Below, one piece after another: positions 3,807 through 34,748 of a DNA stretch of 35,961 bases. The notes under the pieces are model-generated. The model made no database searches and had not been told where the DNA came from. It saw only the letters and a program-made list of their open reading frames with translations. This stretch comes from Verrucomicrobiia bacterium (lineage in GTDB: Bacteria; Verrucomicrobiota; Verrucomicrobiia; Chthoniobacterales; UBA6821). The stretch covers positions 1-35,961 of the forward strand of contig JAPLTJ010000002.1 of NCBI GenBank assembly GCA_026398175.1, in the 5' to 3' direction. The position numbers and the translations under genes are program-made. Position 1 is the stretch's first letter; every line of letters begins with the position of its first letter.

Positions 3807-4061
3807 ATTCACAGGGATGGAAGGGATTAGAGCGTTTTAAAAAAAGTTATAGCCGATACAGTGCCAGGAACGAGGCGCGCAGACCCGCAGTGTATAGAGA
3901 TACTCGAGGACGCGAGCACCGGAGTGACGCCGCAATGTGCGGCTATAACTTTTTTGAAAATGCTCTAAAGAAAGTGGCCCTTTCAACCGCGAAGTGCAAC
4001 ACGTAAAAAAAATAGAAAGACTATTTTTCACCATCCCTTCCATCGCTTCTATCCCTGTGAG
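3807..4061. repeat. Inverted repeat pair (ACAGGGATGGAAG family) around a MITE
   Basis: Left arm 3807-3827 (ATTCACAGGGATGGAAGGGAT) and right arm about 4031-4061 are inverted copies of one word family, which recurs at 11792-11856, 11967-11995, 25507-25540 and 33748-33780. The right arm supplies the end of ccsA: its last codons GAC TCA CAG GGA and stop TAG lie in the repeat. If the MITE between the arms is removed, the arm spacing falls to roughly 65 bp, in the range seen for the other pairs. Confidence 0.75.
3828..3967. mobile_element. 140-bp MITE with 28-bp inverted ends and TA duplication
   Basis: Ends 3828-3855 and 3940-3967 are inverted repeats matching at 26 of 28 positions. The left end runs TAGAGC, an AT-rich stretch, then GTTATAGCCG. 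Both ends finish in TA, the target duplication typical of IS630/Tc1-mariner transposons. The interior (3856-3939) is GC-rich and codes for nothing plausible. No transposase is present, so it would need help in trans. It is nested between the two arms of an older inverted repeat. The family assignment rests only on the TA ends. Confidence 0.75.
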
Positions 4062-18818: not shown

Positions 18819-19478
18819 ATGTCCAATTTTTTTCCTCGCTGGTCCAATCTCTTGCCGCTAAAACTGCTCGTTTGTTTAGCAGTCATTGGCTGTGCCATTG
18901 TGGGAGGGATTTGGTATTACTTTACACCGAAGTACACGCGTGTCGGTTATCAACCAGATCAACCGATTCCTTTTTCTCACGCGATCCATGTGAAGCAGCT
19001 CGGCATGGACTGTCGTTACTGTCATAGCTTTGTTGAAGTTTCTGGACATTCCAATATTCCTAACACACAGACCTGCATCAACTGTCACGGCCAAGGCAAG
19101 GTAAAATGGGATAGCCCGCGCCTTGCTCCTGTTCAAGAGAGCTGGAAGACGGGACGCCCGATTCAATGGATCAGGATTCATAGACTTCCTGATTATGCCT
19201 ATTTCAATCACGCTGTGCACGTGAACCGCGGGGTCAGTTGTTACAGCTGTCATGGGGCCATTAATGAAATGGCAGTGGTCTATGAAGCTAAGCCGCTCAG
19301 TATGTCCTGGTGCCTGGAATGTCACCGTGCTCCAGAAAATTTCCTTCGTCCTCCTAGCGAGGTGTTCAATATGGATTGGCATCCTAAATCTTTTGATGAA
19401 CAACTGAAAGTTGGCACGAAATTAAAACAAGAGTGGAATGTGAATCCCCCCGTAACTTGCGGTGGTTGTCACAGGTAA
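18819..19478 (+). CDS. actA: Alternative complex III subunit A, pentaheme cytochrome c
   Basis: 219 residues. Electron-transfer subunit of alternative complex III, the quinol:cytochrome c oxidoreductase that replaces cytochrome bc1. An N-terminal anchor helix (15-35) is followed by five CXXCH heme sites at Cys65, Cys86, Cys141, Cys165 and Cys214 (CRYCH, CINCH, CYSCH, CLECH, CGGCH), the number expected for ActA. Additional histidines (for example FSHAIHV and FNHAVHV) are placed to be distal ligands. First gene of the respiratory operon; actB begins 12 bp later. No Shine-Dalgarno sequence precedes the ATG. Confidence 0.95.
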   Translation: MSNFFPRWSNLLPLKLLVCLAVIGCAIVGGIWYYFTPKYTRVGYQPDQPIPFSHAIHVKQLGMDCRYCHSFVEVSGHSNIPNTQTCINCHGQGKVKWDSPRLAPVQESWKTGRPIQWIRIHRLPDYAYFNHAVHVNRGVSCYSCHGAINEMAVVYEAKPLSMSWCLECHRAPENFLRPPSEVFNMDWHPKSFDEQLKVGTKLKQEWNVNPPVTCGGCHR

Positions 19479-19490
19479 TTTTTTTGAGCA

Positions 19491-22400
19491 ATGAAACACA
19501 TTTTTCAACATCCAGCACGCGATGAGCAGCCAACGCTTTGGAGGACTTCTGGCGAACACGAGAACAGTGCTGCTTTTAACGAAGATCTCGGACGTGAGTT
19601 TGCTGCTGGCCTTGATCGTCGTGATGGCGAGGAAAATGTCGCGACCAATGGCATGTCGCGCCGTAATTTTTTAAAACTCACGGGTGCCTCTGCAGCTCTT
19701 GCTGGCGTTGGTCTCACTGCTTGTCGTCGTCCAGAAGCTTATCTGGTGCCGTTTACACGCTCGGCAGAATGGGCGATCCCTGGAAAATTTCTTTACTACG
19801 CGACAACGATGCCAACCCCGCTGGGTGGCATTCCCCTGATTGCAACAACGTTTGAAGGTCGCCCGACGAAGATGGAAGGCAACCCGCTTCATCCGATCAG
19901 CAACGGTTCGACAGATGCCTTTGCTCAGGCTTCCATTTTAGATCTCTACGATCCTCATCGTGCGAAAGCGATCAAGCGTGATGGCAAAGAGGTCAAGCGT
20001 TCGGCGTTGGATTCTTATTTGGCGCAGCTTCGTCAGACCGCTTTGAGTGCTCAAGGAGAAGGATTGCTGTTTGTTGTGGAGAGCGCCCATTCTCCAACGC
20101 GCAATCGTTTGCGCGATGCCTTGATGAAAGAATTTCCAAAGATGAAGTGGGTGGAGTATGAAGCGCTCTCTCGCGAAAACGAGCAGCAGGCTTGCGAAGT
20201 GGCTTTTGGAGATGGAATGAGGCCTGTCTATCATCTCAAAAAAGCAGATGTCATTGTTGCTCTTGATAGCGATTTTCTCAATCCCGTAGAACGCGGAGTT
20301 GGCTTTGCTGCTGATTTTTATACTCGTCGCAATCCAGAGCAGGCCATGAATCGCCTCTATGCTGTCGAGAATAGCTACACCCTGACAGGAGGAATGGCTG
20401 ATCATCGTTTGCGCGTCAAAGCCAGTCAGATCGGAGCTTTTGCGGCAACCTTGGCGCTGCAGATTGCTAAGAAGACCAACAATAGCTCTCTCGATTCACT
20501 CGCCGCAGCCTATTTAAAAAATCATCCAACAGCTAATGTTCCGAAATGGGATGAGTGGATCAAGCCGCTTGCTGATGATTTGATGGCGGCGCAAGGAAAG
20601 AGCCTTCTCCTCACAGGACCTGGACAATCAGAGGCGGTGCAGCTTTTGGTTTTTGGAATCAATGCGGCGTTGGGAAATTTAGGTGCGACCATGGACATGG
20701 TGGCGCTAGGAAAAAAACCAACTTCTTTTCAAGAGGTTGTGGCTGCATTAAAAACGGATTCCATCAAGCAGCTCTTTCTTTTTCAAACGAATCCCGTTTA
20801 TACAGCGTCTCAAGAGGCTGATCTTGCGAAGCTCCTTGCGGCTGTTCCTAACTCGCTTCACCTTACGCTCAACGAAGATGAGACAAGCAAAGCTTGTCAC
20901 TGGATTATTTCAGCTGCTCACTACCTCGAATCATGGGGCGATACTCGCAGTTTTGATGGAACGTTGTGTGCTGTTCAGCCGATGGTGCTTCCGCTTTGGA
21001 ATGGACTCACGGAGATCGAAGTGCTCAACGCGCTTCAAGGCAAGCCTGCTCCCGAAGGTCCAGCGTTGATTCGTGAGACGTTCAACACTTTTTCTAAAGA
21101 CACGTCGGAAGAGGCATGGCATCAATATTTGCACAACGGTTTCTTAGAAAATTCTGCAGCATTGGTCGTCAGGCCCTCTTGGAATGCGGCTGCAGCGCAG
21201 AGTTCCGTTGCTGCTGAGATGCCAGAGCCAGTAGGGCAAGGGGAATTTGAGTTAGCCTTTTTGCCAAGCGCGAGCGTCTACGATGGCCGCTACAGCGGCA
21301 ATGCGTGGTTGCAAGAGACGCCAGACTTTGTAACGAAGTTGACGTGGGATAATGCACTCTTGATGAGTCCTGCGGATGCGAAACGTTTAGGCCTCGCTGA
21401 TGGAGATATGGTTTCGCTCAGTGATGGAAAGAACAAAATGGAGATTGCTCTCCTCATGGCCCCTGGTCATGCGGATGGTTCGGTAAGTGCTGCCCTCGGA
21501 TATGGAAGGAAAGGGCTTTCTCACGTTATCGATCATGTTGGATTTAATGTTTATCCGCTGCGCAGGAATGGAGTGCTTAATTATGTGCAAGGAATTTCGG
21601 TGACACCGCTTCGTGGCAAAAAGTATGACTTTGCACAAACGCAAGAGCATCGCAACATGGAAGGGCGTGACCTTGTCCGTGAAGGAACGGTCGGGCGTTA
21701 TCAAGAAGATCCTTCTTTTGCTCAGACGATGGGAATGGACGCTCACATTCCTCCTAACATCAGCCTTTACAACAATCCTCCTTACACAGGGCAAGAGCAG
21801 TGGGGAATGTCAATTGATTTGAATACTTGCATCGGATGCAATGCTTGTCTCTTGGCCTGCCAGGCAGAGAACAATGTTCCTGTTGTTGGAAAAGATCAGG
21901 TCCGTCGTGGTCGTGATATGGCTTGGATTCGCATTGATCGTTGGTTTGCAAGTCCTGATGGCTCGGAAGAGGAACCCGAGATGTTGCCGCAGGCGATCCT
22001 TTGTCAGCATTGTGAAAATGCTCCTTGCGAGACGGTTTGTCCTGTCAATGCCACGGTGCATAGCGAAGATGGATTGAACTTGATGGCTTACAATCGTTGC
22101 ATTGGGACTCGTTATTGTGCGAACAACTGTCCTTGGAAAGTTCGGCGTTTTAATTTCTTCGATTATAATCAACGTCCGCTCGATGAGCTTTACTACGGAC
22201 CATTAGCGCCGAAGGGCATGGCCGATAGTCTCAAGATGTCCAAAAATCCTAATGTCACGGTTCGGATGCGTGGTGTGATGGAAAAATGCACATTCTGTAT
22301 TCAACGGATCGAAGAGTCTAAGATTGGGCGTCTCGTTAAGGCAGGGGGTAGCGATTCTCATCAGGTCGCCATGGCTCCGTTTAAAACAGCCTGTCAACAA

Positions 22401-22730
22401 GCTTGTCCTTCGGAGTCGATTGTTTTTGGAAACATCGCTGATCCGAATAGTGAGGTTTCACGTCGCAAGGCGAGCGCTCGTGATTACACGATGCTGAAGT
22501 ACCTCAATACGAAACCGCGTGTCACTTATCTTGCTCGCATCAAAAATCCGAACCTCAACATGCCTGGAGCCAAGAACGTAGGTCTTGCCAATGGAGTGCC
22601 TCATCATGGAGCGCATCATGCGCCTGAGGCCTCAGAGCATGCCGACGTAGGACCAACTCATTTTGATGGTCACGGTACAGAAGCCCCTTCTGTGGCCGCG
22701 CCCAAGAAGGAAGCAGCACCTGTGACTTAA
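19491..22730 (+). CDS. actB: Alternative complex III subunit B, fused Mo-enzyme-like/Fe-S protein
   Basis: 1079 residues. A twin-arginine export motif S56RRNFLK sits before a hydrophobic stretch ending LTAC, after a ~55-residue N-terminal extension, as usual for ActB. Residues ~70-740 are a molybdopterin oxidoreductase-like domain, which in studied ActB proteins has lost the cofactor. Residues ~770-1010 are a four-cluster ferredoxin-like domain: CIGCNACLLAC, CQHCENAPCETVCP, CIGTRYCANNCP, and CTFC with a later CQQACP. The His- and Ala-rich tail (HHGAHHAPEASEHADVGPTH) is probably disordered. It carries electrons between the quinol site (ActC/ActF) and the hemes of ActA. Confidence 0.95.
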   Translation: MKHIFQHPARDEQPTLWRTSGEHENSAAFNEDLGREFAAGLDRRDGEENVATNGMSRRNFLKLTGASAALAGVGLTACRRPEAYLVPFTRSAEWAIPGKFLYYATTMPTPLGGIPLIATTFEGRPTKMEGNPLHPISNGSTDAFAQASILDLYDPHRAKAIKRDGKEVKRSALDSYLAQLRQTALSAQGEGLLFVVESAHSPTRNRLRDALMKEFPKMKWVEYEALSRENEQQACEVAFGDGMRPVYHLKKADVIVALDSDFLNPVERGVGFAADFYTRRNPEQAMNRLYAVENSYTLTGGMADHRLRVKASQIGAFAATLALQIAKKTNNSSLDSLAAAYLKNHPTANVPKWDEWIKPLADDLMAAQGKSLLLTGPGQSEAVQLLVFGINAALGNLGATMDMVALGKKPTSFQEVVAALKTDSIKQLFLFQTNPVYTASQEADLAKLLAAVPNSLHLTLNEDETSKACHWIISAAHYLESWGDTRSFDGTLCAVQPMVLPLWNGLTEIEVLNALQGKPAPEGPALIRETFNTFSKDTSEEAWHQYLHNGFLENSAALVVRPSWNAAAAQSSVAAEMPEPVGQGEFELAFLPSASVYDGRYSGNAWLQETPDFVTKLTWDNALLMSPADAKRLGLADGDMVSLSDGKNKMEIALLMAPGHADGSVSAALGYGRKGLSHVIDHVGFNVYPLRRNGVLNYVQGISVTPLRGKKYDFAQTQEHRNMEGRDLVREGTVGRYQEDPSFAQTMGMDAHIPPNISLYNNPPYTGQEQWGMSIDLNTCIGCNACLLACQAENNVPVVGKDQVRRGRDMAWIRIDRWFASPDGSEEEPEMLPQAILCQHCENAPCETVCPVNATVHSEDGLNLMAYNRCIGTRYCANNCPWKVRRFNFFDYNQRPLDELYYGPLAPKGMADSLKMSKNPNVTVRMRGVMEKCTFCIQRIEESKIGRLVKAGGSDSHQVAMAPFKTACQQACPSESIVFGNIADPNSEVSRRKASARDYTMLKYLNTKPRVTYLARIKNPNLNMPGAKNVGLANGVPHHGAHHAPEASEHADVGPTHFDGHGTEAPSVAAPKKEAAPVT

Positions 22731-22762
22731 TTTTGGAGCGACTTTAATACCACCTTTCACTC

Positions 22763-24157
22763 ATGGATTCAGCAACCCTTTCAGCAGAAGAACAAAAGTT
22801 AGTTCGTCCTCCACTTGTCCTTAACAAGCGGACGATGGGCTGGATCAGTAGCTATGTGAGCACGATTGTCGAATCGAAAACGCCTCGTTGGTGGTTCATT
22901 TCGATTGCGATCACGAGTTCCATTGCATTGCTGACACCGCTGATGCTTTGTTACTTGGTCGCAACGGGGGTTGGTGTTTGGGGAAACAATAGTCCTGTTT
23001 TTTGGGCTTGGGATATTACGAACTTTGTTTTCTGGATCGGTATCGGTCACGCAGGGACATTAATTTCAGCAATTCTTTTTATAACGCGGCAAAAATGGAG
23101 GACCTCGATCAACCGTGCTGCGGAGGCGATGACTCTTTTTGCGGTGGTCTGCGCCGGTATCTATCCGATGTTTCACGTAGGACGCATTTGGAAAGTCTAT
23201 TTCTTAGCCCCTGTTCCTAATTCAAATGGAATTTGGCAAAATTTTCGCAGTCCGTTACTTTGGGATGTCTTTGCCGTTTCCACCTACTTCACCGTTTCTG
23301 TCTTATTCTGGTACACCGGACTAATTCCCGATTTAGCAACCTTGCGAGATCGTTGCACCACCAAAATTAAAAAATTCATTTATGGCATTATGGCACTCGG
23401 TTGGCGTGGAGGTAATCGTCAATGGCGTCATTACGAAATGGCCTACATCTTGCTAGCAGGTCTTTCTACGCCGTTGGTGCTTTCCGTTCACAGTGTCGTG
23501 TCTTTTGACTTTGCTACTTCGGTAATTCCAGGCTGGCACGCGACGATCTTCCCTCCTTACTTTGTGGCAGGAGCAATCTTCGGCGGATTCGCCATGGTGT
23601 TGACCATCATGCTTCCAGCGCGAGCCATCTATCCTCAGCTCCACGACATGATCACGCCTGGTCACATTAACAAAATGGCTAAAGTGATTTTGTTGACTGG
23701 TTCGATTGTGGGCTATGCTTACTTGATGGAGCTTTTCATTGCCTGGTATGGAGCTAATCCATACGAGCGAGCAGCTTTTTGGTACCGCGCCTTTGGGCCT
23801 TATTGGTGGGCTTATGCGTGCATGATGTTTTGCAACGTTGTGTCGCCTCAAGTTTTTTGGTTCAAGTGGTGCCGCACCAATGTCTATGCCGTTTTTATTG
23901 TTTGTATGTTTGTGAATGCAGGAATGTGGTTCGAACGCTTTGTCATCATTGCAACAACATTGGCGCGCGACTTTCTTCCTTCTTCCTGGGGGCTCTTTCA
24001 TCCGACTATAGTCGATATCTTGACATTCATAGGAACCTTTGGTCTTTTCACAACACTCTTCCTCCTCTTCGTTCGCTTCTTGCCTATGATTTGTATGTTT
24101 GAAGTAAAAGCTGTCTTGCCCGAAGCGAATCCACACTATGGAGAGGAGCACCACTAA
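22763..24157 (+). CDS. actC: Alternative complex III subunit C, NrfD-like quinol-binding membrane protein
   Basis: 464 residues, about ten membrane helices, NrfD/PsrC family. Landmarks include [20 protein letters not shown], a histidine-bearing helix typical of the quinol site, [11 protein letters not shown], and [20 protein letters not shown]. It oxidises quinol at the outer face of the inner membrane and passes electrons to the Fe-S domain of ActB. The start is 32 bp after actB; actD follows within 1-2 bp. Confidence 0.95.
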
Positions 24158-24158
24158 G

Positions 24159-24734
24159 ATGATGATATCGACGACAACAACAGGTTTTTCAACGGCTCCT
24201 ATTTATGCTGTGGGAGTAGAATTCGACAGCGCTCGTGATCTTTATCACGCTGCTGAGAAAGTCCGTGATGCTGGCTACAAACGTTGGGATACTTTTTCTC
24301 CTTTTCCAATTCATGGAATGGATACGGCCATGGGACTTCCCAAGTCGTGGTTGAGTGCGCTGGTTTTTATTGGTGGTCTGACCGGTTTTAGCACAGCGGC
24401 CTTTATGGAATTTGGTGCTTCCAGTTTTCTCTATCCACTGATTGTCGATGCGAAGCCGACAAACTTGATGACGATTCCTGCTTTCTTCCCGATCATGTTT
24501 GAGCTGACTATTCTTTTTTCAGCGCTTACGGCGACTTTTGGAATGCTCGCTCTCAATGGCCTTCCGCGTTGGAACCATCCGCTTTTTAATTGGGATCGTT
24601 TTAAAAAGGTGACCGAAGATAAATTTTATATTGCGATCGAGGCAACGGATGAAAAATTTTCTTTGGAAGAGACGCGCCAATTTTTACAATCTCTTGGCGG
24701 CAGTCATATCACAGTCATTCATCACGACGAATAA
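24159..24734 (+). CDS. actD: Alternative complex III subunit D
   Basis: About 191 residues, DUF3341 family. Two membrane helices (about 55-80 and 95-120) follow a soluble N-terminal part containing AKERVRDAGYKRWD-like sequence (AEKVRDAGYKRWDTFSPFPI) and the HGMD turn, both typical of ActD. I prefer the ATG at 24159, which clears the actC stop by one base; the frame also opens at 24138 inside actC. ActD stabilises the complex next to ActC. Confidence 0.92.
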   Translation: MMISTTTTGFSTAPIYAVGVEFDSARDLYHAAEKVRDAGYKRWDTFSPFPIHGMDTAMGLPKSWLSALVFIGGLTGFSTAAFMEFGASSFLYPLIVDAKPTNLMTIPAFFPIMFELTILFSALTATFGMLALNGLPRWNHPLFNWDRFKKVTEDKFYIAIEATDEKFSLEETRQFLQSLGGSHITVIHHDE

Positions 24735-24743
24735 TTTCAAATC

Positions 24744-25433
24744 ATGTTACGTTATTTTTTCATTGGATTTACCTTGCTCCTCTTGCTTCTTGTCTCGATG
24801 ACAGGATTGCGTGGATGGAAGTCAAAACGTCCGCCTCTGGAACTTTTTCCTGATATGGTGCGCCAAGCAAAATACAAGGCGCAAACGGAGAGCTCTTTTT
24901 ATGCCGATGGTCGCGCAGCCCAGGCGCATGCGACAGGAACAGTGCCGATGGGGTATTCTGCTCCTCAAGCAAAGTTTGCTGATAGCAACAGTTCGTCGAC
25001 AGACCTTGCTGGTCCTTACAAAAACATTCAGTTTTCTGGATCTCCAACGTATCGCGAGACCGGTCGAATGGGAACGCAGTGGGGAACAGGTATTCCGTTT
25101 GAAGTGACACCTTCCATCATGCAACGAGGACAGGAGCGGTATAATATTAGCTGTGCTGTCTGTCATGCTGCGACGGGTCAAGGAAATGGAATTGCTTCCA
25201 AGTATGGCCTCAATGGTATTGCTAATCAGCATCAGCAACGGATTCGTGATATGGCCGACGGAGAAATTTTTAATACCATCACTTGGGGAAAAAATACGAT
25301 GATGGGTTATGGTTCCAATATTCAAGTTCCCGATCGTTGGGCAATCATCTGTTACTTACGCGCACTCCAACGTTCTCAGAATGCGACTCTTTCTGATGTT
25401 CCAGACGCAGAACAGAAAAAACTTAACCGCTAA
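24744..25433 (+). CDS. actE: Alternative complex III subunit E, monoheme cytochrome c
   Basis: 229 residues. An N-terminal anchor helix (4-22) is followed by a cytochrome c domain with one heme site, CAVCHAATGQGNG, near residue 137, and a candidate Met ligand in TMMGYGSNI. The block MVRQAKYKAQTESSFYADGR, near the N-terminus of the mature part, is characteristic of ActE. It passes electrons from the complex to soluble or oxidase-bound cytochrome c. Its last residues LNR and the TAA stop are made by an AACCGCTAA repeat. Confidence 0.93.
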   Translation: MLRYFFIGFTLLLLLLVSMTGLRGWKSKRPPLELFPDMVRQAKYKAQTESSFYADGRAAQAHATGTVPMGYSAPQAKFADSNSSSTDLAGPYKNIQFSGSPTYRETGRMGTQWGTGIPFEVTPSIMQRGQERYNISCAVCHAATGQGNGIASKYGLNGIANQHQQRIRDMADGEIFNTITWGKNTMMGYGSNIQVPDRWAIICYLRALQRSQNATLSDVPDAEQKKLNR

Positions 25434-25540
25434 ATTCGCTAAAAACCGCTAAATTAAAAAATTCTTTTTCGTGATAGTTCGCGTATTTCGCGGTTTATAA
25501 ATTCTTTTTATCCCTTCCATAGCTTTCATCCCTGTGAATA
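25421..25540. repeat. Repeat-filled gap between actE and actF
   Basis: 25421-25454 (AACCGCTAAATTCGCTAA and more) and 25478-25500 form an inverted pair, with 15 of 18 core positions matching, only 23 bp apart. It is followed at 25507-25540 by a copy of the ACAGGGATGGAAG family in inverted orientation. The first array supplies the actE stop; the second supplies the GTG start of actF (CCCTGTGAATAA). This is the longest intercistronic gap within the act genes. Confidence 0.8.
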
Positions 25541-26727
25541 AATCTTCTTCATCTCCAAGCCCTGAATACTTCGACTACAAGCATGTCGGGGGACGCTTTA
25601 TGGGCCTTGTTTCCGTGGCGATCGTATCATTAGTGGTTTCTTTTCTTCTTGGGATGCACCATCCCAAGCAGTTTGCTTTTTCATGGTTGTTTGCCTTTTT
25701 CTATTTTATGACAATCGTGATTGGGAGTCTCTTTTGGATCCTCGTGCATCATGGTATTGACGTAGAATGGAGCGTCGGAGTTCGCCGACAGATGGAGAAT
25801 GTTGCAAGCCTCTTCCCGGTGATGGCCTTTCTTTTTGTTCCTCTGATTTTTGTAGCGCCTCGACTTTGGACATGGATGACGATTCCTCATGGCGCTGATA
25901 TTCAGCTGATGGAAAAAGCGGCTTATCTCAACCTTCCTTTTTTCTGGATGAGAGCAGCCTTCTATTTTCTCTTTTTTAGCACAGTGGCTTTGTGGCTCCG
26001 TAAACTTTCCGTAGCTCAAGATAAAACGGGTGATCCAAAATATACCATGATGGCCCGGAAAATAACCTTTGCGAGCCTTCCCTTCTTCGCGGTTTGCCTT
26101 ACTTTTGCTGCCGTTGACTGGCTCATGGGGCTTGATTTTAAATGGGTCTCGACGATGTGGGGTGTCTATATTTTTGCTGGTTCTGCATTGAGCTCTCTTT
26201 GTGTCATTCTCCTCATTGTGACAGCACTTCGCTCCGCGGGTTATCTGCAAGGAATTGTTTCAGAGCGACACTATTCTCTCATGGGACAATTGATGACAGC
26301 CTTTACTGTTTTCTGGGCATATATCGGTTTTGACCAATACATGCTGATTTGGTATGCCAACATTCCTGAAGAGACGATTTATTTTTTGCGTCGCAATACG
26401 GAGAGTTGGTGCACGCTCAACATGATTTTGGTCGTCGGACATTTTTTAATTCCTTTCGTGCTTTTGCTGTTTCGTAATCCAAAACGTCGGCCTGCTTATC
26501 TTTGTGGTGTTGCTTTTTGGATTTTGCTCATGCATATGCTCGATATCTATATTGTCGTCTTGCCGATGATCCATCCTGCTGGATTTGCTCCAAGTATTTT
26601 TGATGTTCTGGCTCTTCTTGCCATTGGATGCACGCTTGCAGCTGTTTTTCTCAAACGCTTGGGAGATGTTCCTCTCTGGCCGTTGCGCGATCCACGTTTA
26701 AAGGATTCTATTAACATTGCTGTGTAA
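25534..26727 (+). CDS. actF: Alternative complex III subunit F
   Basis: 397 residues, about ten membrane helices, distantly related to ActC. Diagnostic stretches: FWILVHHGIDVEWSVGVRRQ, ending of the helix WVSTMWGVYIFAGSALSSLC, and TVFWAYIGFDQYMLIWYANI followed by PEET. ActF is thought to contribute to proton translocation. The start is GTG at 25534, lying in a dispersed repeat; the only other candidate (Met near residue 23) would cut into the first helix. Confidence 0.93.
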   Translation: MNKSSSSPSPEYFDYKHVGGRFMGLVSVAIVSLVVSFLLGMHHPKQFAFSWLFAFFYFMTIVIGSLFWILVHHGIDVEWSVGVRRQMENVASLFPVMAFLFVPLIFVAPRLWTWMTIPHGADIQLMEKAAYLNLPFFWMRAAFYFLFFSTVALWLRKLSVAQDKTGDPKYTMMARKITFASLPFFAVCLTFAAVDWLMGLDFKWVSTMWGVYIFAGSALSSLCVILLIVTALRSAGYLQGIVSERHYSLMGQLMTAFTVFWAYIGFDQYMLIWYANIPEETIYFLRRNTESWCTLNMILVVGHFLIPFVLLLFRNPKRRPAYLCGVAFWILLMHMLDIYIVVLPMIHPAGFAPSIFDVLALLAIGCTLAAVFLKRLGDVPLWPLRDPRLKDSINIAV

Positions 26728-26739
26728 ACTTTTGAACTC

Positions 26740-27159
26740 ATGACCTGCTCTTCTTCTCATACTAAATTATCTTGTTGCTTCCCTTGGTCGCGGCTTTGGA
26801 CAGCCTTGGGCATGTTTGTTCTTTTTCTTGCAGCCGTGATTGTTTTGGTGCTTTGGAATCCTCGGCCTCTCGATGAAGATGCTGAGCGAGCCATCCTGAG
26901 GGCTAAAAATTTGAAGGAACTTCGAGAAGCCAATGAGAAGCGTCTGAATAACTATGGATGGGTCGATCAAGCTAAGGGAATTGTTTTTATCCCGATAGCG
27001 CGCGCCATGGAACTGGAAACAGTTTCCCTCAACGATCCTAAATGGAAACCCCACGCAACCTATCCAATTGCACCGATTGACCTTGTTCCCAAACCAGCTG
27101 GCATGCCGGTTCCAGCGCCGGCAGCTGCTCCTAGTGCTTCCTCCACGTCAGCCAAGTAA
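26740..27159 (+). CDS. Small membrane-anchored protein of the act/cox operon
   Basis: 139 residues. One N-terminal helix (about 20-42, ALGMFVLFLAAVIVLVLW) anchors a soluble part that begins RPLDEDAERAILRAKNLKEL. The block NNYGWVDQAKGIVFIPIARA followed by MELE resembles small proteins that I recall from other act/cox operons. The tail is Pro/Ala-rich and probably disordered. It lies 12 bp after actF and 6 bp before the CcoN-like gene, so it is cotranscribed with both. An accessory role in the respiratory complexes is likely, but no function is established. Confidence 0.7.
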   Translation: MTCSSSHTKLSCCFPWSRLWTALGMFVLFLAAVIVLVLWNPRPLDEDAERAILRAKNLKELREANEKRLNNYGWVDQAKGIVFIPIARAMELETVSLNDPKWKPHATYPIAPIDLVPKPAGMPVPAPAAAPSASSTSAK

Positions 27160-27165
27160 TCACTC

Positions 27166-28644
27166 ATGCGTCACGAATCCTCTCTCTCACAAGTTCAAGC
27201 AGCCACTAATTTTAGCGAGCCGGCTCCGCTGCATGCGACGACTCGTGCTGAAATTGATGCCTCGCTTCGTTTTCCAGTATTGCTCTTTTTTAGGACGGCT
27301 CTTTTTTGGCTTCTGCTCGGCTCCATTCTTTGCACGATCACCTCTTTGAAGCTCGTGGTGCCTTGTTTTTTAGATGGCATCAATTTTTTATCTTATGGAA
27401 GACTTCTTCCAGTGGCTCTCGATGCGCTGCTTTATGGATGGGCGATCCCAGCTGGCCTTGGTATCAGCCTCTGGCTCATCGCACGGCTTTGCGGCAGGTC
27501 ACTCCGTTGTACGAAGATATTAGTCGCAGCAACTCTTTTTTGGAACATTGGAGTTTTTCTTGGATCGCTAGGCATCCTTTGCGGTTACGGAACCTCTGTT
27601 CCTTGGCTCGAATATCCTAATTGGGCTTCCATCCCTCTCTTTATCGCCTTTTTGCTGATGGGAGTTTGGGTCGTATTACTTTTTTTAGCACGTCAGCCAC
27701 GTTCTATTTATATAACGCAATGGTACCTTTTGTTAGGGTTGTGTGCTTTTCCTTGGCTCTATGCTACGTCAAATATGCTTTTGACATGGGGGTCGGTACA
27801 GGCTTCTGCTCAAGGACCGATCATCGCTTGGTATAGCGCAAATATTTTTGGACTCTTCCTCATTCCGTTAGCGCTGGGGATCATCTACTATTTAATTCCT
27901 AAAATTACAGGAGCCGCCATTTACAGCTACTATCTCGCGGTACTGGGATTTTTCTCGCTGTTGCTCTTGGCTGGCTGGTCTGGAATGACTCTGTTTCTCG
28001 GCGGACCCATTCCTGTTTGGATGGTCAGTGCCAGCGTGGTGGCAACGATGTTGATGATGATTCCTGTCGCGGCAGTAATTTTGAATTATGCCAAGATGAT
28101 CCAAGGACAAGCTGCTGCACTCAAAGAAAGTCCGGCCCTTCGCTTTATTGCTTTTGGAATTATTGCTTATTTCGTGGCTACGCTGTTGAACTTGGCCTAC
28201 GCCATTCCAACTTGGAATGGAATTCTTCACTTCACGCATTACTCTAATGGTGTCGTGCTCCTCACGCTCTTAGGCTTTGTGAGTATGGTTCTCTTTGCGG
28301 GAATGTATTACATCGCGCCGCGGCTGTTTGGTTTTTCGTGGCTCTGTGCTTGTTCCATTCGATGCCATTTTTGGTTTGCGGTTGTTGGTCTTTCGCTGAT
28401 GGTTACTTCTATGACGCTGGGTGGACTCATTGAAGGCCTCGCCTTGGATGATGCGGCTATTACTTTTGTGAATGTTCTCTCTTTTGCGGCACCATGGCGT
28501 TGGCTGAATGTGATCGCTTGGATGTTGCTACTGCTCTCTTACGTTTCTTTTGTTAGACTTTTTGGTAAAATGCTTTTTCGTGCTACTCATCCTGATCAAA
28601 AAGCATCAGCTTGTTCCTTTAATCCACTTGCTTCCGTTTCATGA
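27166..28644 (+). CDS. CcoN-like protein without heme/copper ligands
   Basis: 492 residues, twelve or so membrane helices; by sequence a cbb3-oxidase subunit I (CcoN) relative. Helix landmarks align well: YGRLLPVALDALLYGW (77-92), WYSANIFGLFLIPLALGIIY (222-241), WSGMTLFLGGPIPVW (271-285) and FTHYSNGVVLLTLLGF (356-371). In active CcoN the matching positions are His in RPLHT, WYGHN, WTG-x-HH and GHxHL. Here they are Ala84, Ala225, Thr275/Leu276 and Val363/Leu365, so all six metal ligands look absent. It cannot be a working oxygen-reducing subunit. The next gene, a complete CcoO-like cytochrome, overlaps it by ATGA. It is probably a scaffold or quinol/cytochrome-docking subunit of the ActABCDEF-oxidase assembly; that is inference. 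Confidence 0.82.
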   Translation: MRHESSLSQVQAATNFSEPAPLHATTRAEIDASLRFPVLLFFRTALFWLLLGSILCTITSLKLVVPCFLDGINFLSYGRLLPVALDALLYGWAIPAGLGISLWLIARLCGRSLRCTKILVAATLFWNIGVFLGSLGILCGYGTSVPWLEYPNWASIPLFIAFLLMGVWVVLLFLARQPRSIYITQWYLLLGLCAFPWLYATSNMLLTWGSVQASAQGPIIAWYSANIFGLFLIPLALGIIYYLIPKITGAAIYSYYLAVLGFFSLLLLAGWSGMTLFLGGPIPVWMVSASVVATMLMMIPVAAVILNYAKMIQGQAAALKESPALRFIAFGIIAYFVATLLNLAYAIPTWNGILHFTHYSNGVVLLTLLGFVSMVLFAGMYYIAPRLFGFSWLCACSIRCHFWFAVVGLSLMVTSMTLGGLIEGLALDDAAITFVNVLSFAAPWRWLNVIAWMLLLLSYVSFVRLFGKMLFRATHPDQKASACSFNPLASVS

Positions 28645-29264
28645 ATCGTTTGCGACCACTCTTCATCACTATTGCCCTTCTCTTTTTTGCAGGATGGCTT
28701 GGATTCGTTGCTTATTCCTATTTGCAATTGGGGCGTCTCGCTCCGCAAGTAGAGAGCGATGGCAGTTTGCCGCCACTGCAAAGTGGGAGTGCCATTCGCG
28801 GAGCTAAGGTTTATGCGGCTGAGGGATGTATGACCTGCCATAGCCAGCAAGTTCGTCAAACGAGTGTGACACCCTCTGATATTGATCGCAACTGGGGGAA
28901 ACGGCCTTCGGTGGCGCGCGATTATTTGAGAGATCAAGTTGCTTTTCTTGGAACATCGCGAATCGGTCCTGATTTGAGCAATGTGGGAGTTCGTTTTACA
29001 GATCCTATTTGGTATTATCGTCACCTCTATGAACCAACGGCCGTGGTTCCTGGATCGAACATGCCTGCTTATCGTTATCTTTTTAAAATGCAAAAAATCC
29101 AGGGGCAACCTTCTGAAGAGGCGATCGTTCTAACAGGTCCTCATGCTCCCAAGGAGGGGTATGAAGTTGTTCCCACCGAGGAAGCTAAAGACCTCGTCGC
29201 TTACTTGCTCTCTCGGAAACAAGATTATACCTTGCCAGAAGTTCCTCCTGTTCCTGAAAAATAA
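28641..29264 (+). CDS. ccoO: CcoO-like membrane-anchored monoheme cytochrome c
   Basis: 207 residues. An N-terminal helix (7-28) anchors a cytochrome c domain with C63MTC66H67 followed by SQQVR, then GPDLSNVGVR and GSNM141PAYRYLF, with Met141 the likely sixth ligand. All are standard CcoO (cbb3 subunit II) blocks. It is translationally coupled to the histidine-free CcoN-like gene. In a normal cbb3 oxidase CcoO hands electrons to CcoN. Here it more likely relays electrons from alternative complex III towards the aa3 oxidase encoded downstream. Confidence 0.88.
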   Translation: MNRLRPLFITIALLFFAGWLGFVAYSYLQLGRLAPQVESDGSLPPLQSGSAIRGAKVYAAEGCMTCHSQQVRQTSVTPSDIDRNWGKRPSVARDYLRDQVAFLGTSRIGPDLSNVGVRFTDPIWYYRHLYEPTAVVPGSNMPAYRYLFKMQKIQGQPSEEAIVLTGPHAPKEGYEVVPTEEAKDLVAYLLSRKQDYTLPEVPPVPEK

Positions 29265-29279
29265 ACATATTCTGTTGTT

Positions 29280-29993
29280 GTGAATCCATCTAATACCCAT
29301 CATTCTTCCGACGACTTGCAGCTCGAGCGTGACCTTGTTGAGATCAATCATGCTCCGGCATCGCTTCATAACGCTGATAAGAACGGCTTCTTGCAGCCAT
29401 TGCCGCTTTGGCTGATGACCTTTTCGATGTTCCTTTTTTTCTGGGCAGGAATGTACTTGGCTTACAATAGTGGTGGTTTTAAGGCAAATGTCTTTGATGC
29501 TTCGGTGGTTTCTTGGAGTGGGGGAGGAAGTGGCGGTGCCGCTGCTCCAGTTGATATGAAAGTTCTTGGGAAAAAAGTGTTCACGCAGACATGTGTGATT
29601 TGCCATCAAGCAACAGGGCTTGGCGTTCCTGGACAATTTCCTCCACTAGTCGGAACAGAGTGGGTTCTTTCTCAAGACTGGCATGGCGATAATCATCTTG
29701 TGAAGCAAGTGTTGTATGGAATGCAAGGTCCTATCACGGTCAAAGGAATGCCATTCAACAATGCGATGGCTGCTTGGAGTCAATTAACAGATCAACAAAT
29801 TGCTGCCGTGCTAACGTACGTTCGTTCGGAATGGGGTAATAATGCACCTCCGATCACAACGGAATTTGTAACGAAAGTTCGTGCCGACACCAAACCTCGC
29901 ACTGAGGCTTGGAATCTGGCTGAAATGAAAGCGATTCCTAAAGAAATGTGCTCTGGTTCCGCTGCCCCTGCAACTCCGCCCGTGAAAAAATAG
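29280..29993 (+). CDS. Membrane-anchored monoheme cytochrome c
   Basis: 237 residues from GTG 29280. One membrane helix (about 43-61) is followed by a Gly/Ser/Ala linker and a cytochrome c domain with C105VIC108H109 and QATGLGVPGQFPPLVGTEWV, the class I pattern seen in CcoP-type and caa3-associated cytochromes. The likely Met ligand is in KGMPFNNAMAAW. CoxB in this operon lacks a fused cytochrome domain, so this protein is a good candidate for the separate electron donor to CuA. It lies 15 bp after ccoO and 2 bp before coxB. Confidence 0.87.
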   Translation: MNPSNTHHSSDDLQLERDLVEINHAPASLHNADKNGFLQPLPLWLMTFSMFLFFWAGMYLAYNSGGFKANVFDASVVSWSGGGSGGAAAPVDMKVLGKKVFTQTCVICHQATGLGVPGQFPPLVGTEWVLSQDWHGDNHLVKQVLYGMQGPITVKGMPFNNAMAAWSQLTDQQIAAVLTYVRSEWGNNAPPITTEFVTKVRADTKPRTEAWNLAEMKAIPKEMCSGSAAPATPPVKK

Positions 29994-29995
29994 TC

Positions 29996-30850
29996 ATGAA
30001 GTTCTCAATTAAAAATTTCCCTCTTCAAAAATGCATCGCTCTTGTTGCGACGTTTTTTCTTTTGTCAGTCAGCGTTATGGCGGAAGTACGGTCCGGTAAT
30101 ATTTATTGGACGCCTCGCAATGCGACACTCAATGGGATTGAAACAGATCGTCTTTTAACCTTTATTTTTTGGCTCACAGCAATTGTTTTCTTTCTCGTTC
30201 AAACAGTTTTTGTTTATTATTTGATCAAGTATCGTCGCCGTCCTGGGGTAAAGGCTCACTACAGTCATGGAAATAACACGCTGGAAATTATTTGGACCAC
30301 ATTGCCAACGCTTATCTTTCTTGGATTAGCCATTTACGGTAATCGTGTATGGTATGAAATTCATCAGCCTGCGCCTCAGAATGCTTTAACCGTCGAAATC
30401 ACAGGTTATCAGTTTGCATGGGATTTTCGCTATCCTGGCTCCAGCGGTACGTTAGCGCGTTCGGATGTACGTGACATCACACCTATGAATAAATTTGGTG
30501 TCGACATGACGGATCCTCGTGCTAAGGAAGATTTTTCGACAACAGAATTGGTTGTTCCTATTGGAAAACCAGTTCATGTTCTGCTCCGCTCCCGCGATGT
30601 TATTCACTCTTTTTATGTTCCTGAGTTTCGTATTTATCAAGATGCGGTTCCTGGACGGACTATTGGATGGATTTGGTTTAAGACACTTCGCTCAGGAAAT
30701 TTCCAACTTGCTTGCAGTCAACTTTGCGGTAAGGGTCACTACAACATGAAGGCTCCTATTCGGGTTGTTAGCCAAGAAGAGTATGATAAATGGTATGCTG
30801 AGAAAGTGATAAAGCCGAATGTCTTCATCGAGCTTGCTGCAAAAAAATAA
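29996..30850 (+). CDS. coxB: Cytochrome c oxidase subunit II (CuA)
   Basis: 284 residues from the ATG at 29996. A signal sequence (about 13-29), two helices (53-77 and 98-117) and a periplasmic cupredoxin domain are visible. CuA ligands are complete: H204, C240, C244, H248 and M251 (VIHSFYVPEF, CSQLCGKGHYNM). The residue between the cysteines that is usually Glu (CSELC) is Gln242; its carbonyl binds copper, so function can survive. No cytochrome c domain is fused at the C-terminus, unlike classic caa3 subunit II. It receives electrons and passes them to CoxA. Confidence 0.94.
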   Translation: MKFSIKNFPLQKCIALVATFFLLSVSVMAEVRSGNIYWTPRNATLNGIETDRLLTFIFWLTAIVFFLVQTVFVYYLIKYRRRPGVKAHYSHGNNTLEIIWTTLPTLIFLGLAIYGNRVWYEIHQPAPQNALTVEITGYQFAWDFRYPGSSGTLARSDVRDITPMNKFGVDMTDPRAKEDFSTTELVVPIGKPVHVLLRSRDVIHSFYVPEFRIYQDAVPGRTIGWIWFKTLRSGNFQLACSQLCGKGHYNMKAPIRVVSQEEYDKWYAEKVIKPNVFIELAAKK

Positions 30851-30872: not shown

Positions 30873-32657
30873 ATGAATGCTGTAATGACCTCCACTTCTG
30901 CTGAAACAGTTCATGCTAAGGCTCCTCATCATGATAATGACCATGCTTCTCCTGGCGTTATGAAATATCTCTGGACCTATGATCACAAGATGATTGGACT
31001 TCAGTATCTTTGGACCGCGTTTTTTTTCCTAGCTATTGGTGGAGCGTTAGCTTTAGCAGTTCGTTTTCAACTAGGATTTCCTAATCATCCCATTCCTTTG
31101 ATTGGCAAACTTCTTCCTGCAACGCTGGCTACAGATGAAGGAGTAATTATCCCTGGAGGTTATAATATGTTAGTGACAATGCATGCCACTATCATGGTCT
31201 TCTTTGTGGTCATGCCTTTGTTAATCGGAGCTTTTGGAAATTATCTTATCCCTCTCAAGATTGGTGCTGGCGATATGGCATTTCCACTTTTGAACGAATT
31301 AAGCTATTGGCTCTATGTCCTTTCAGGAGTTTTTATTCTTGGAGCTTTTTTTGCCCCAGGTGGCGCTCCGGGTACTGGATGGACGGCCTATGCTCCTTTG
31401 AGCGTAGTTGCGGCTTATAACCAAACACAAATGGGTCAGAGTTTGTGGGGAGCTGCCATTTTCATCAATGGACTTGCTTCCATTGCAGGCGCAACTAATT
31501 ACATTACGACTGTTATTACGATGCGGGCTCCAGGCATGACGATGTTCCGTTTGCCTTTGACCGTTTGGTCGCTCTTCATTACTTCGATTCTTCTCATTTT
31601 TGCAGTGCCGGTGCTTTCAGCCGCAGCAGCGATGCTCTTCTTTGACCTCAATATGGGAACGAGCTTCTTCAAGCCTGCTGGCAACGGACAACCGTTACTT
31701 TGGCAGCATCTCTTTTGGTTTTTTGGGCATCCTGAAGTTTACATCATGATCTTGCCGGCAATGGGGATTGTTTCTGAGATCATGCCTGTCTTCGCTCGAA
31801 AGCCAGTCTTTGGATATAAGGCTATGGTCTACGCCATGGGCGCGATTGGTTTTCTTGGTTTTATTGTCTGGGGACATCACATGTTTGTCAGTGGTATGAA
31901 TCTGACGTTGAGTGCTACTTTTGCTGTTTCAACGATGGTCATAGCTGTTCCTTCAGCGATTAAGACCTTCAACTGGCTTGGCACAATTTGGAAGGGTTCG
32001 ATTGAGTATACTGTTCCGATGTGCTTTGCATTGGCGTTTGTCATGATGTTTGTCATTGGAGGCCTCAGTGGTATTTTCATGGCATCAACGCCGGTCGATC
32101 TTTTTGTTCATCATACTTATTTTATTGTTGCTCATTTCCATTATGTTCTTTTTGGAGGCAGTATCTTTTCTATTTTTGCCGGAATCTATTTTTGGTTTCC
32201 AAAAATGTTTGGGCGGATGTTGAATCACAGACTCGGTATGATTCATTTCTTTGCAACTTTGTTGTTCTTTAATCTCACTTTTTTTCCGATGCACAATTTG
32301 GGACTCGGAGGAATGATGCGGCGTATTTCTGACCCGACCGTTTATGAGCACTTGCGTCAGTTGCAACCGCTCAATGTGCTTTGTACCATCGGAGCTTTTG
32401 GTTTGGGACTCTCGACCTTGGTTTTTGTCATCAATGTCATTTACAGCCTCCGCTATGGTCCTAAGGCTCCGAATAATCCTTGGCGGTCTACGACGCTTGA
32501 GTGGACATTGCCATCACCGGTAACGCTCCATGGAAATTTCCCAGTAACTCCTACTGTTTACAATGGTCCTTACGAATATAGTGTTCCAGGGATGGAAGAA
32601 GATTATCTTCCTCAAAATGTCAAAGCGCCGGAAACAGCAAGGATTGAGCTGCATTAA
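30873..32657 (+). CDS. coxA: Cytochrome c oxidase subunit I, A1 type
   Basis: 594 residues, twelve helices. Heme a ligands H104 and H423, heme a3 ligand H421 and CuB ligands H286, H335 and H336 are all present. H286-P-E288-V-Y290 carries the Tyr cross-linked to His and the D-channel Glu of type A1 enzymes. It reduces O2 to water and pumps protons. There is no fused subunit III, and no coxC or coxD follows: the next gene is ctaA. The TAA stop is followed at once by a GGTAACG repeat array. It is the only oxidase subunit I in the window with an intact active site. Confidence 0.96.
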   Translation: MNAVMTSTSAETVHAKAPHHDNDHASPGVMKYLWTYDHKMIGLQYLWTAFFFLAIGGALALAVRFQLGFPNHPIPLIGKLLPATLATDEGVIIPGGYNMLVTMHATIMVFFVVMPLLIGAFGNYLIPLKIGAGDMAFPLLNELSYWLYVLSGVFILGAFFAPGGAPGTGWTAYAPLSVVAAYNQTQMGQSLWGAAIFINGLASIAGATNYITTVITMRAPGMTMFRLPLTVWSLFITSILLIFAVPVLSAAAAMLFFDLNMGTSFFKPAGNGQPLLWQHLFWFFGHPEVYIMILPAMGIVSEIMPVFARKPVFGYKAMVYAMGAIGFLGFIVWGHHMFVSGMNLTLSATFAVSTMVIAVPSAIKTFNWLGTIWKGSIEYTVPMCFALAFVMMFVIGGLSGIFMASTPVDLFVHHTYFIVAHFHYVLFGGSIFSIFAGIYFWFPKMFGRMLNHRLGMIHFFATLLFFNLTFFPMHNLGLGGMMRRISDPTVYEHLRQLQPLNVLCTIGAFGLGLSTLVFVINVIYSLRYGPKAPNNPWRSTTLEWTLPSPVTLHGNFPVTPTVYNGPYEYSVPGMEEDYLPQNVKAPETARIELH

Positions 32658-32776
32658 AGAGTAACGGGTAACGGGTTTTTAATTAATCTTCTGATGAAAC
32701 CTGTTTTTTGAAAAACTCACCACAGAAAATGTTGTCTCAAGATTCATCACCCGTTACTCGTTACTCCTTACCCGTT
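32658..32776. repeat. Inverted pair of heptamer arrays (GGTAACG family) between coxA and ctaA
   Basis: Left arm 32660-32676: AGTAACG, GGTAACG, GGT. Right arm 32749-32776: ACCCGTT, ACTCGTT, ACTCCTT, ACCCGTT, the inverted words in exact 7-bp phase, 72 bp away. The right arm is inside the ctaA frame and encodes SPVTRYSLPVT just before the first membrane helix. Confidence 0.85.
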
Positions 32777-33829
32777 ACTTTACTTCATGTTTTCGCGCTG
32801 GTGACGACGGTGCTGACATTCGTGCTCCTCTGCAGCGGCGGTTTGGTAACATCGAAGGGCGTTGGGATGTCGGTGCCTGACTGGCCGACAACTTACGGCT
32901 ATAACATGTTTGCTTTTCCACTCTCGCAATGGGTGGGTGGGGTTTTTTATGAACATACGCATCGGCTGCTCGCCTCTGGGATTGGGCTTCTCACGGTGAT
33001 CTTGAGTGTGATGACTTTTTTTTTAGAAAAGCGGCGTTGGGTGCGACGCTTGGCGCTCGGCCTCTTGGTTGGTGTCATCTTGCAAGGAGTTCTTGGTGGG
33101 CTTCGCGTCACGCTCTACAAAGATGAGCTCGGAATTTTTCATGCGATTGTGGCGCAAACTTTTTTTGCGCTCTTGCTGATTTTCTCTGCGGCTACAAGTC
33201 GTTCTTTTTTCGAAGGAAAATGGTCGGGAGAAGCCCCTGCTGCAAAGCTCCGTTGGCTCGGGCTTGCTGGAGTGGTGCTGACTTATTTTCAACTCATCAT
33301 TGCAGCGACGATGCGTCATGCTCACTTAGGATTGGCGATTCCTGATTTCCCGACCGCTTATGGAACTGTTCTTCCTGATCTTTCAGAAACAGCAGTCGCA
33401 ACCATCAATGCTGCACGCTTGGCTCAAGCGATGATGCCCACAACAGCAACACAAATTGAATTGCAACTCATTCACCGAGGTGGGGCTTTGCTCTTAATGG
33501 GAGTCGTACTCTTGTTGATGATTCGAGCTCGAGAGTTATTGCCAGAGCGGCACTGGGTTCATCGCTGGTCATTTATTTGGGGAATTTTGCTAGTGCTGCA
33601 AGCAGCGCTGGGAGCTTGGACCATCTGGTCCAACAAGGCAGCTGATCTTGCGACAGCGCATATGGCGCTCGGAGCGCTCTTACTAGGGGGGGCTCTCCTC
33701 CTAACTTTCCGGCTTTTTGTAGCGAATAAAATGGAAGAACAAATGATTTGCAGGGATGAAAACGAAGGAAGGGATGAAGCATATGAGGAACAAGGCAACG
33801 AGCCTCTCTCACTTCCAAACGTGAGCTAA
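32729..33829 (+). CDS. ctaA: Heme A synthase (COX15/CtaA)
   Basis: About 366 residues, eight membrane helices. Oxidises the C8 methyl of heme O to make heme A for CoxA. Landmarks: SVPDWPTTYGYNMF, YEHTHRLLASGIGLL, MRHAHLGLAIPDFPTAYG, IHRGGALLLMGVVL and TAHMALGALLLGG, with the conserved helix histidines. I start at ATG 32729; a TTG at 32708 is also in frame. The N-terminal tail (SPVTRYSLPVT) comes from a heptamer array, and the C-terminal tail (CRDENEGRDEA) from a copy of the ACAGGGATGGAAG repeat at 33748-33780, so both ends of the protein are repeat-derived. Confidence 0.9.
   Translation: MLSQDSSPVTRYSLPVTLLHVFALVTTVLTFVLLCSGGLVTSKGVGMSVPDWPTTYGYNMFAFPLSQWVGGVFYEHTHRLLASGIGLLTVILSVMTFFLEKRRWVRRLALGLLVGVILQGVLGGLRVTLYKDELGIFHAIVAQTFFALLLIFSAATSRSFFEGKWSGEAPAAKLRWLGLAGVVLTYFQLIIAATMRHAHLGLAIPDFPTAYGTVLPDLSETAVATINAARLAQAMMPTTATQIELQLIHRGGALLLMGVVLLLMIRARELLPERHWVHRWSFIWGILLVLQAALGAWTIWSNKAADLATAHMALGALLLGGALLLTFRLFVANKMEEQMICRDENEGRDEAYEEQGNEPLSLPNVS
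33748..33780. repeat. Dispersed repeat copy inside the ctaA 3' coding end
   Basis: The stretch GCAGGGATGAAAACGAAGG then AAGGGATGAAGC is a diverged copy of the family at 3807, 11828 and 25507. It is read in frame as CRDENEGRDEA, after the last membrane helix of CtaA. Confidence 0.65.
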
Positions 33830-33833
33830 TTTT

Positions 33834-34748
33834 GTGAAACAGCATTCTGTAAAAACAGCGAATTCAGTGAACGACTTCATGGAGCTCATCAAGGCTCGCT
33901 TGTCGTTGCTTGTACTGATCACGACACTCGTAGGATTTTTGTTGGGATGGAATGGGCCGCTCGATTATTTTTTGTTGGGAGCAACCTTGCTTGGAACGGC
34001 GCTTTCTGCCTGTGGTGCCTCAGCATTGAACCAATGGTGGGAAAGGGCCCTGGATGCTTTGATGAAGCGGACGGAAGATCGGCCCCTTCCTGCAAAAAGG
34101 TTGCATCCTCGAGATGCACTTCTTTTTGGATTGCTCTGCTGTTTTGTTGGAACGGCGCTTTTATTTTTTTTCGTGAACTTACTGGCTGCACTTTTGGCAG
34201 CAGCCACCATCGTCATTTATGTCTTGGTCTACACACCCATGAAACGACGAACGACCCTGAATACCTTGCTGGGAGCTGTTCCTGGCGCCTTGCCTCCTCT
34301 GATTGGCTGGGCAGGGGCAACGAATGATATTGGAGTGGGGGGAGCTGTTCTTTTTTTGATCCTCTGGTTTTGGCAGATGCCTCATTTTTTAGCGATTGCT
34401 TGGCTCTATCGAGAGGACTATGCCGCAGCAGGTTTTCGGATGCTCAGCGTGGATGATCCGGAAGGCTTCATGACCTCGCGCCAAGCCTTGCTCTATGCTC
34501 TAGGCCTGCTTGCGGTCTCACTTCTTCCTACGCTGCTTGGAATGGCCTCGCCATTTTATTTTGTAGCAGCATTGATATTAGGAATTCTTTTTGCGCTAGC
34601 AGCTTTCTTATTCGTGAAAGATCGTACTCGAAAAAATGCTCGCAAACTTTTCTTCGCGTCGATTATTTATTTGCCGCTCATCTTGGGAGCGCTGGTAATT
34701 TTCAAAAGCTCAACGCTTCAACCTTTTAATCTTTTACCCATCCCATGA
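33834..34748 (+). CDS. ctaB: Protoheme IX farnesyltransferase (heme O synthase)
   Basis: 304 residues, about eight to nine helices, UbiA-type prenyltransferase. Adds a farnesyl group to heme B, giving heme O for CtaA. The first motif NQWWERALDALMKRTEDRPL carries the Asp-rich N-x-x-x-E-x3-D-x2-M-x-R-T-x2-R-P-L-P signature; the YTPMKRRTTLNTLLGAVPGA block follows. The start is GTG at 33834, 4 bp after ctaA. The last ~12 residues (SSTLQPFNLLPIP) are encoded by an octamer repeat (GCTTCAAC family, 34701-34731). The stop overlaps the next small ORF by ATGA. Confidence 0.93.
   Translation: MKQHSVKTANSVNDFMELIKARLSLLVLITTLVGFLLGWNGPLDYFLLGATLLGTALSACGASALNQWWERALDALMKRTEDRPLPAKRLHPRDALLFGLLCCFVGTALLFFFVNLLAALLAAATIVIYVLVYTPMKRRTTLNTLLGAVPGALPPLIGWAGATNDIGVGGAVLFLILWFWQMPHFLAIAWLYREDYAAAGFRMLSVDDPEGFMTSRQALLYALGLLAVSLLPTLLGMASPFYFVAALILGILFALAAFLFVKDRTRKNARKLFFASIIYLPLILGALVIFKSSTLQPFNLLPIP
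34701..34731. repeat. TTCAAC-family repeat at the ctaB 3' coding end
   Basis: GCTCAAC, GCTTCAAC and CTTTTAAT follow each other in frame and match the octamer array at 14980-15016 (TTTTCAAC, GCTTCAAC). They encode the extreme C-terminus of CtaB. Confidence 0.55.

Follow-up and report, generated by a model that had tools for sequence, protein, structure and literature searches.

Why should a bacterium keep, between the genes of two respiratory complexes, a protein that resembles the catalytic subunit of a cbb3-type oxidase along its whole length and has lost every residue by which that subunit holds its metals? The question is raised by a stretch of 35,961 nucleotides from a Verrucomicrobiia bacterium (contig JAPLTJ010000002.1), which we refer to as the window. 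It carries a complete actABCDEF set with its genes in order (18819-26727), as in the operons of alternative complex III (ACIII), and, further on, an aa3-type oxidase whose CoxA sequence contains the HPEVY, HH and HFH motifs (Table 1). A first-pass annotation had placed a CcoN-like/CcoO-like pair between ACIII genes and an intact aa3 oxidase, and we find exactly this arrangement, the pair being flanked by a 139-aa one-TM gene on its upstream side and by a cytochrome c gene on its downstream side. Elsewhere in the window, ResB-like and Cytochrom_C_asm (CcsA-like) genes for system II maturation of cytochrome c, at 4049-7587 on the minus strand, share the contig with this haem c rich operon, and a HipA_C-domain protein (34862-35806, minus strand) adjoins ctaB.

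Table 1. Features of the respiratory locus, in window positions
Feature	Position	Strand	Basis
ActA, multihaem cytochrome c of alternative complex III	18819..19478	+	Pfam Cytochrome_C7; operon position
ActB, Fe-S/molybdopterin-like subunit	19491..22730	+	Pfam Fer4_7, Molydop_binding, TAT_signal
ActC, NrfD-like membrane subunit	22763..24157	+	Pfam NrfD
ActD	24138..24734	+	Pfam ActD, 196 bits
ActE, mono-haem cytochrome c	24744..25433	+	Pfam Cytochrome_CBB3/Cytochrom_C
ActF, NrfD-like membrane subunit	25534..26727	+	Position and act-locus homologues; without Pfam match
Small one-TM protein, 139 aa, between ActF and CcoN-like gene	26740..27159	+	Homologues in same place in most relatives; without Pfam match
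6-bp gap where intact relatives carry ccoS; ccoS absent here	27160..27165	+	
Pseudo-CcoN, 12-TM CcoN-fold protein without metal ligands, 492 aa	27166..28644	+	
A84, site of low-spin haem b ligand H60	27415..27417	+	Alignment to P. stutzeri CcoN
A225, site of CuB ligand H207	27838..27840	+	Alignment to P. stutzeri CcoN
A269, site of cross-linking Tyr Y251 (helix VII)	27970..27972	+	Alignment
T275-L276, sites of CuB ligands H257-H258	27988..27993	+	Alignment to P. stutzeri CcoN
V363, site of haem b3 ligand H345; L365, site of low-spin haem ligand H347	28252..28260	+	Alignment
CcoO/FixO-like mono-haem cytochrome c; ATGA overlap with pseudo-CcoN at 28641-28644	28641..29264	+	
CMTCH haem c site of CcoO-like subunit	28827..28841	+	
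Met141, aligned axial haem ligand of CcoO-like subunit	29061..29063	+	
Membrane-anchored cytochrome c; CxxCH and Met conserved in all relatives	29280..29993	+	
CoxB (CuA subunit)	29948..30850	+	TIGR02866, 174.8 bits
CoxA, aa3-type subunit I, ligand motifs intact	30873..32657	+	TIGR02891
CtaA/COX15 haem a synthase	32708..33829	+	
CtaB-like (UbiA) haem o synthase	33834..34748	+	

The 492-aa protein, here called pseudo-CcoN, aligns colinearly with CcoN of P. stutzeri (3mk7; E 2.5e-33, residues 42-440 aligned) and matches Pfam COX1 with 158.8 bits. Its 134.8 bits with the curated ccoN model TIGR00780 lie below the cut-off of 583, a score that is not decisive on its own because two intact relatives likewise fall short (245-254 bits). 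The P. stutzeri ligands H60, H207, H257, H258, H345 and H347 align to A84, A225, T275, L276, V363 and L365, so that none of the six histidines is present; these are the very residues that the first-pass annotation had named, although it had overlooked that the catalytic cross-linking tyrosine, Y251, is replaced too (A269). The same annotation had allowed for the possibility that other conserved histidines occupy the metal sites. No conserved substitute was found there among the degenerate homologues, whose sole conserved histidine, H401, is shared by every intact member and corresponds to H384 of P. stutzeri CcoN. Chance or assembly error as the source of the loss is ruled out by an orthologue from a second species (L158, 92% identical) and by 83 further act-linked homologues in the same state.

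While the metal sites are gone, a full CcoN fold is predicted. An AF2 model built on 75 homologues reaches a pLDDT of 92.2 and a pTM of 0.92, and its top Foldseek matches are CcoN structures (TM 0.86/0.90, 2.1 A to 3mk7), followed by NorB (TM 0.76/0.83) and then ba3 oxidases (about 0.73/0.66). The superfamily fold is therefore shared with NorB of cNOR, but the ranking of CcoN above NorB and the missing ligand histidines led us to reject a NorB identity. Conservation is divided accordingly between pocket and frame: 46 columns that are invariant in intact members are mostly lost in degenerate ones, comprising all ligands, Y251 and their neighbours and centred on the haem/Cu pocket, whereas 29 structural columns rich in Gly, Trp, Pro and Arg are retained. 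Pseudo-CcoN thus has in common with CcoN of cbb3-type (C-family) oxidases the 12-TM fold, the colinear sequence and the mono-haem CcoO-like gene that follows, and differs from it by the absence of metal ligands, cross-linking tyrosine and ccoS and by a score far under the ccoN cut-off. It is near certain that O2 reduction has been lost, and the protein could not serve as an oxidase through any known haem-copper chemistry. To our knowledge, subunit I of a haem-copper oxidase has not been described before in a form that lacks every metal ligand.

This state is not peculiar to the window. Our homologue search was positive in 122 of 388 genomes of the phylum and in 184 of 213 genomes of the order, the weakest matches being ordinary CcoN, and 123 of the 140 stretches fetched held an act-linked homologue from the class Verrucomicrobiae. 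All six histidines and the tyrosine are present in 37 of these 123 (intact forms), five histidines and the tyrosine in one (L163), and zero to three histidines without the tyrosine in 85 (degenerate forms). The tyrosine is lost in 85/85 degenerate copies and kept in 38/38 others. The degenerate set shows 54 distinct combinations at the six positions, among them AATLVL in the window and AGSALF in the same genus, ASAQLQ, S[GA]SRLL and QEGSAL in one genus of a related family (f4) that includes intact members too, and HSQKFI, QQRHQQ, AHSRRW and SESHFV. Intact proteins from the window's order share 38-49% identity with pseudo-CcoN, and the order of the act, CcoN-like and CcoO-like genes is held across loci. 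Since the corresponding operon slot is filled in related families by relatives with six histidines, tyrosine and ccoS, and the intact form is the only haem-copper oxidase in two genomes, the earlier proposal that the window protein descends from an oxidase core is strongly supported. The intact ACIII-linked oxidases of IMCC26134, Geminisphaera TAV2 and Opitutaceae EW11 share the operon of the window and represent the ancestral type, but their six histidines, tyrosine, ccoS and CxYCH in CcoO are absent from the window pair.

The ccoS (fixS) gene, which is needed for an active cbb3 oxidase in the bacteria tested (PMC7558416), follows the same division. It lies directly upstream of ccoN in 38/38 intact act-linked loci (L163 included) as against 0/85 degenerate ones, and also in three intact loci without act linkage in the fetched DNA. 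When whole genomes were searched with PF03597, 17 of 21 intact ones proved to carry ccoS, always immediately ahead of ccoN, and no credible copy turned up in 27 degenerate genomes, in which one weak match lay inside a 656-aa frame; in the window genome (G000) the search gave no match, and no ccoS lies upstream of pseudo-CcoN. Intermediate states (INTERMEDIATES) are graded. L274, the single four-histidine case, which comes from a separate named collection and has no counterpart among the 123 act-linked homologues, has lost the tyrosine and two CuB histidines and kept four histidines and ccoS; L163 carries a single change, H207R, with ccoS present; in L038, L182, L186 and L187 the two low-spin haem ligands are the only ones left and ccoS is gone. 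The gradation of these loci suggests that decay began at the active site and reached the low-spin haem later. The HSQKFI group retains H60.

Has the oxidase been dismantled once or many times? A tree of ActB, ActC and ActF, built from 114 rows and 1885 columns, cannot accommodate the intact/degenerate label in fewer than 14 changes, all of them imposed by starred branches. If six histidines, once lost, are assumed never to return, the tree calls for 19 losses, a figure that falls to 16 when its weak branches are collapsed. When trees are built from the CcoN-like protein without its ligand columns, most degenerate copies fall together and 3 losses suffice, as would be expected had the degenerate form arisen a few times and then spread or been swapped as a cassette, with 16-19 an over-count, a history compatible with any function. 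In these trees, however, the long degenerate branches meet, and we judged them distorted. In a tree-free comparison from which the pocket columns had been removed, the intact copies closest to a degenerate one mostly belong to its own family or to a related one (f7 with f7, f10 with f10, f1 and f4 with f4), and similarity to intact copies follows act identity (median rank correlation, rho, 0.70). A separate test, within the window's order, rejects the placing of all degenerate copies in one clade (p 0.015). A smaller set without pocket columns does unite the degenerate copies of f1 and f4 (94/99), and holding genus g5 together is there neither rejected nor favoured (p 0.09); shared derived sites in g5, at 1-5 per test, are too few to decide. 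We regard few origins as unlikely on this balance. Because degenerate copies resemble their family-mates, in line with act similarity, several independent losses are well supported by the comparisons, the exact count being uncertain.

The partner of pseudo-CcoN has changed as well. The CcoO-like reading frame, coupled to the ccoN-like gene by the ATGA overlap, matches Pfam FixO (79.4 bits) and, as the first-pass annotation had it, keeps its haem c site (CMTCH) and the aligned Met141. Across act-linked loci CxxCH is present in 37/37 intact and 85/85 degenerate partners, whereas the form CxYCH drops from 37/37 to 9/85, and the aligned methionine, kept in 100% of intact loci, is kept in 72% of degenerate ones (28% lost, with Cys in family f8). 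The surroundings of haem c thus drift too, and the drop of CxYCH together with the Met-to-Cys change of f8 suggests that CcoO co-evolved with the metal loss of CcoN. The cytochrome c gene that follows keeps CxxCH and Met in all loci.

Is the protein then still of use to its host? Among close degenerate pairs dN/dS is 0.06-0.25 (0.108 between the window and L158), and on these ratios pseudo-CcoN is under purifying selection, far from neutral. Degenerate copies do evolve more quickly than most intact pairs, and they also outpace ActC, in most pairs by 2-5 fold, so part of the pseudo-CcoN surface may be free. The same rate is what a decaying pseudogene, kept only through its operon position, would display; but reading frames open throughout, the high-confidence predicted fold and persistence across genera and families after old losses make this scarcely credible, and we rejected it on dN/dS. 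The degenerate genomes examined carry at least one other haem-copper oxidase family protein in 46/46 cases; in the window genome it is only the CoxA of the same operon. In two small genomes of 1.3-1.7 Mb, G146 and G001 (loci L036 and L042), we found no haem-copper oxidase besides the intact cbb3-like protein linked to ACIII.

We propose, with a probability of roughly 0.6, that pseudo-CcoN is a pseudo-oxidase that anchors the haem c of the CcoO-like subunit in the electron path from ACIII to a separate oxidase. The ancestral module would have been an ACIII-linked cbb3-type oxidase encoded as actABCDEF, small TM gene, ccoS, ccoN, ccoO and cytochrome c. Conversion has removed the ligands of haem b, haem b3 and CuB together with the catalytic tyrosine and ccoS, and with them O2 reduction, while the 12-helix body would still hold and position the mono-haem CcoO-like cytochrome at ACIII. 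Quinol electrons would then pass from ActA/ActE through the CcoO haem c to the next cytochrome c and on to a separate oxidase, in the window presumably the aa3 oxidase encoded downstream. Starting from the loss of ligands, tyrosine and ccoS, the predicted fold, the haem c motif, the operon, selection and recurrence, we infer that the protein associates physically with ACIII, that it anchors CcoO and that electrons flow in the direction given. The idea of a structural or electron-relay module had been put forward in the first-pass annotation, and its agreement with the retained fold, the haem c partner, purifying selection and operon linkage is good, whereas the role itself stays a proposal. 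A scaffold of this kind might also hold ACIII and aa3 together as a supercomplex, as that annotation suggested; because coxA/coxB are absent beside 39/85 degenerate loci, within the stretch fetched, bridging to an adjacent aa3 oxidase cannot be the general reason for retention.

The absence of neighbouring aa3 genes from about half of the degenerate loci would equally suit a protein that only aids the assembly of the operon's complexes, or binds lipid or quinone, with the CcoO haem as a side branch off the main electron path, and so would the fact that the axial Met of CcoO is not universal. The universal CxxCH of the CcoO-like partners and the keeping together of the pair in the degenerate act loci studied speak against it, and we hold this alternative to be rather unlikely. 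More improbable still is that haem is bound through other ligands for a new kind of redox chemistry: some lineages do keep one or both low-spin haem ligands (the L038 group, and H60 in the HSQKFI group), but the window has six non-coordinating residues and no new conserved histidine, and both the rest of the pocket and ccoS are lost. A dead enzyme reused as a scaffold is probably what we are seeing, because the protein is kept beside other respiratory genes despite repeated loss of ligands and ccoS. The broader picture is about evenly poised: verrucomicrobial ACIII may be a larger holocomplex with a CcoN/CcoO module that began as a working cbb3-type oxidase and repeatedly became a structural and relay module without metals. 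The converted protein would then be the first subunit I in the haem-copper superfamily to be described without ligands.

Among known assemblies, the ACIII-aa3 supercomplexes of Flavobacterium johnsoniae and R. marinus combine ACIII with an aa3-type oxidase, as the genes of the window do; the descriptions consulted mention no CcoN/CcoO-like pair. In F. johnsoniae the two complexes touch through a five-helix COX3 (PMC8361435). The window genus encodes COX3 outside the operon (G000:C127:2881-3573; L158 561-1196), in a short form that lacks most of the family's N-terminal part, as in the F. johnsoniae supercomplex. A suspected internal stop in this COX3 was dismissed, since in L158 it coincides with the opening codon of the match and precedes the gene itself.

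These results bear on how verrucomicrobial respiration is read from genomes. Among ACIII clusters, a review found a C-type oxidase beside act only in methanotrophic Verrucomicrobia and Opitutaceae and treated it as cbb3 (PMC8498564); cbb3 beside ACIII has been invoked for high oxygen affinity (PMC6688271), and the assignment in verrucomicrobial methanotrophs has been repeated (PMC10205796, PMC11102522). In five methanotroph genomes, recognised by their pmo genes (G042, G054, G072, G152 and G266; loci L112, L121, L123, L124 and L127), the CcoN-like protein is of the SESHFV or ADAHQT type, with 1/6 ligands and no ccoS, and the ccoN model found no other CcoN in them. Judged by its residues, the published 'cbb3 oxidase' of verrucomicrobial methanotrophs is the degenerate form in the five genomes examined. 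Where an automated annotation calls 'cbb3 present' in Verrucomicrobia, the presence of the ligands and of ccoS should be verified. A literature search, which most subscription papers (including the ACIII survey Refojo 2010) lay beyond, gave no relevant report of a ligand-free CcoN or a pseudoenzyme haem-copper oxidase. A ligand-free subunit I that is common across a bacterial class, evolved repeatedly and left graded intermediates amounts to a natural experiment on the non-catalytic needs of a respiratory complex.

Outside the main set, a contig scan built on the intact alignment favours intact forms and says little on degenerate forms outside Verrucomicrobia. Seven MAGs labelled Planctomycetota, Omnitrophota, Isosphaeraceae, Gemmataceae or Blastochloris (L222, L227, L229, L239, L250, L264 and L275) carry the locus at 53-60% identity to the verrucomicrobial query and are probably misbinned or mislabelled. 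Divergent CcoN-like proteins with six histidines and no act linkage occur in two sizes, about 455 aa with a 194-aa CcoO (L114, L115, L118-L120, L125 and L126) and 546-618 aa with a 334-340-aa CcoO (L116, L117 and L122), and both groups are possibly separate C-type subfamilies.
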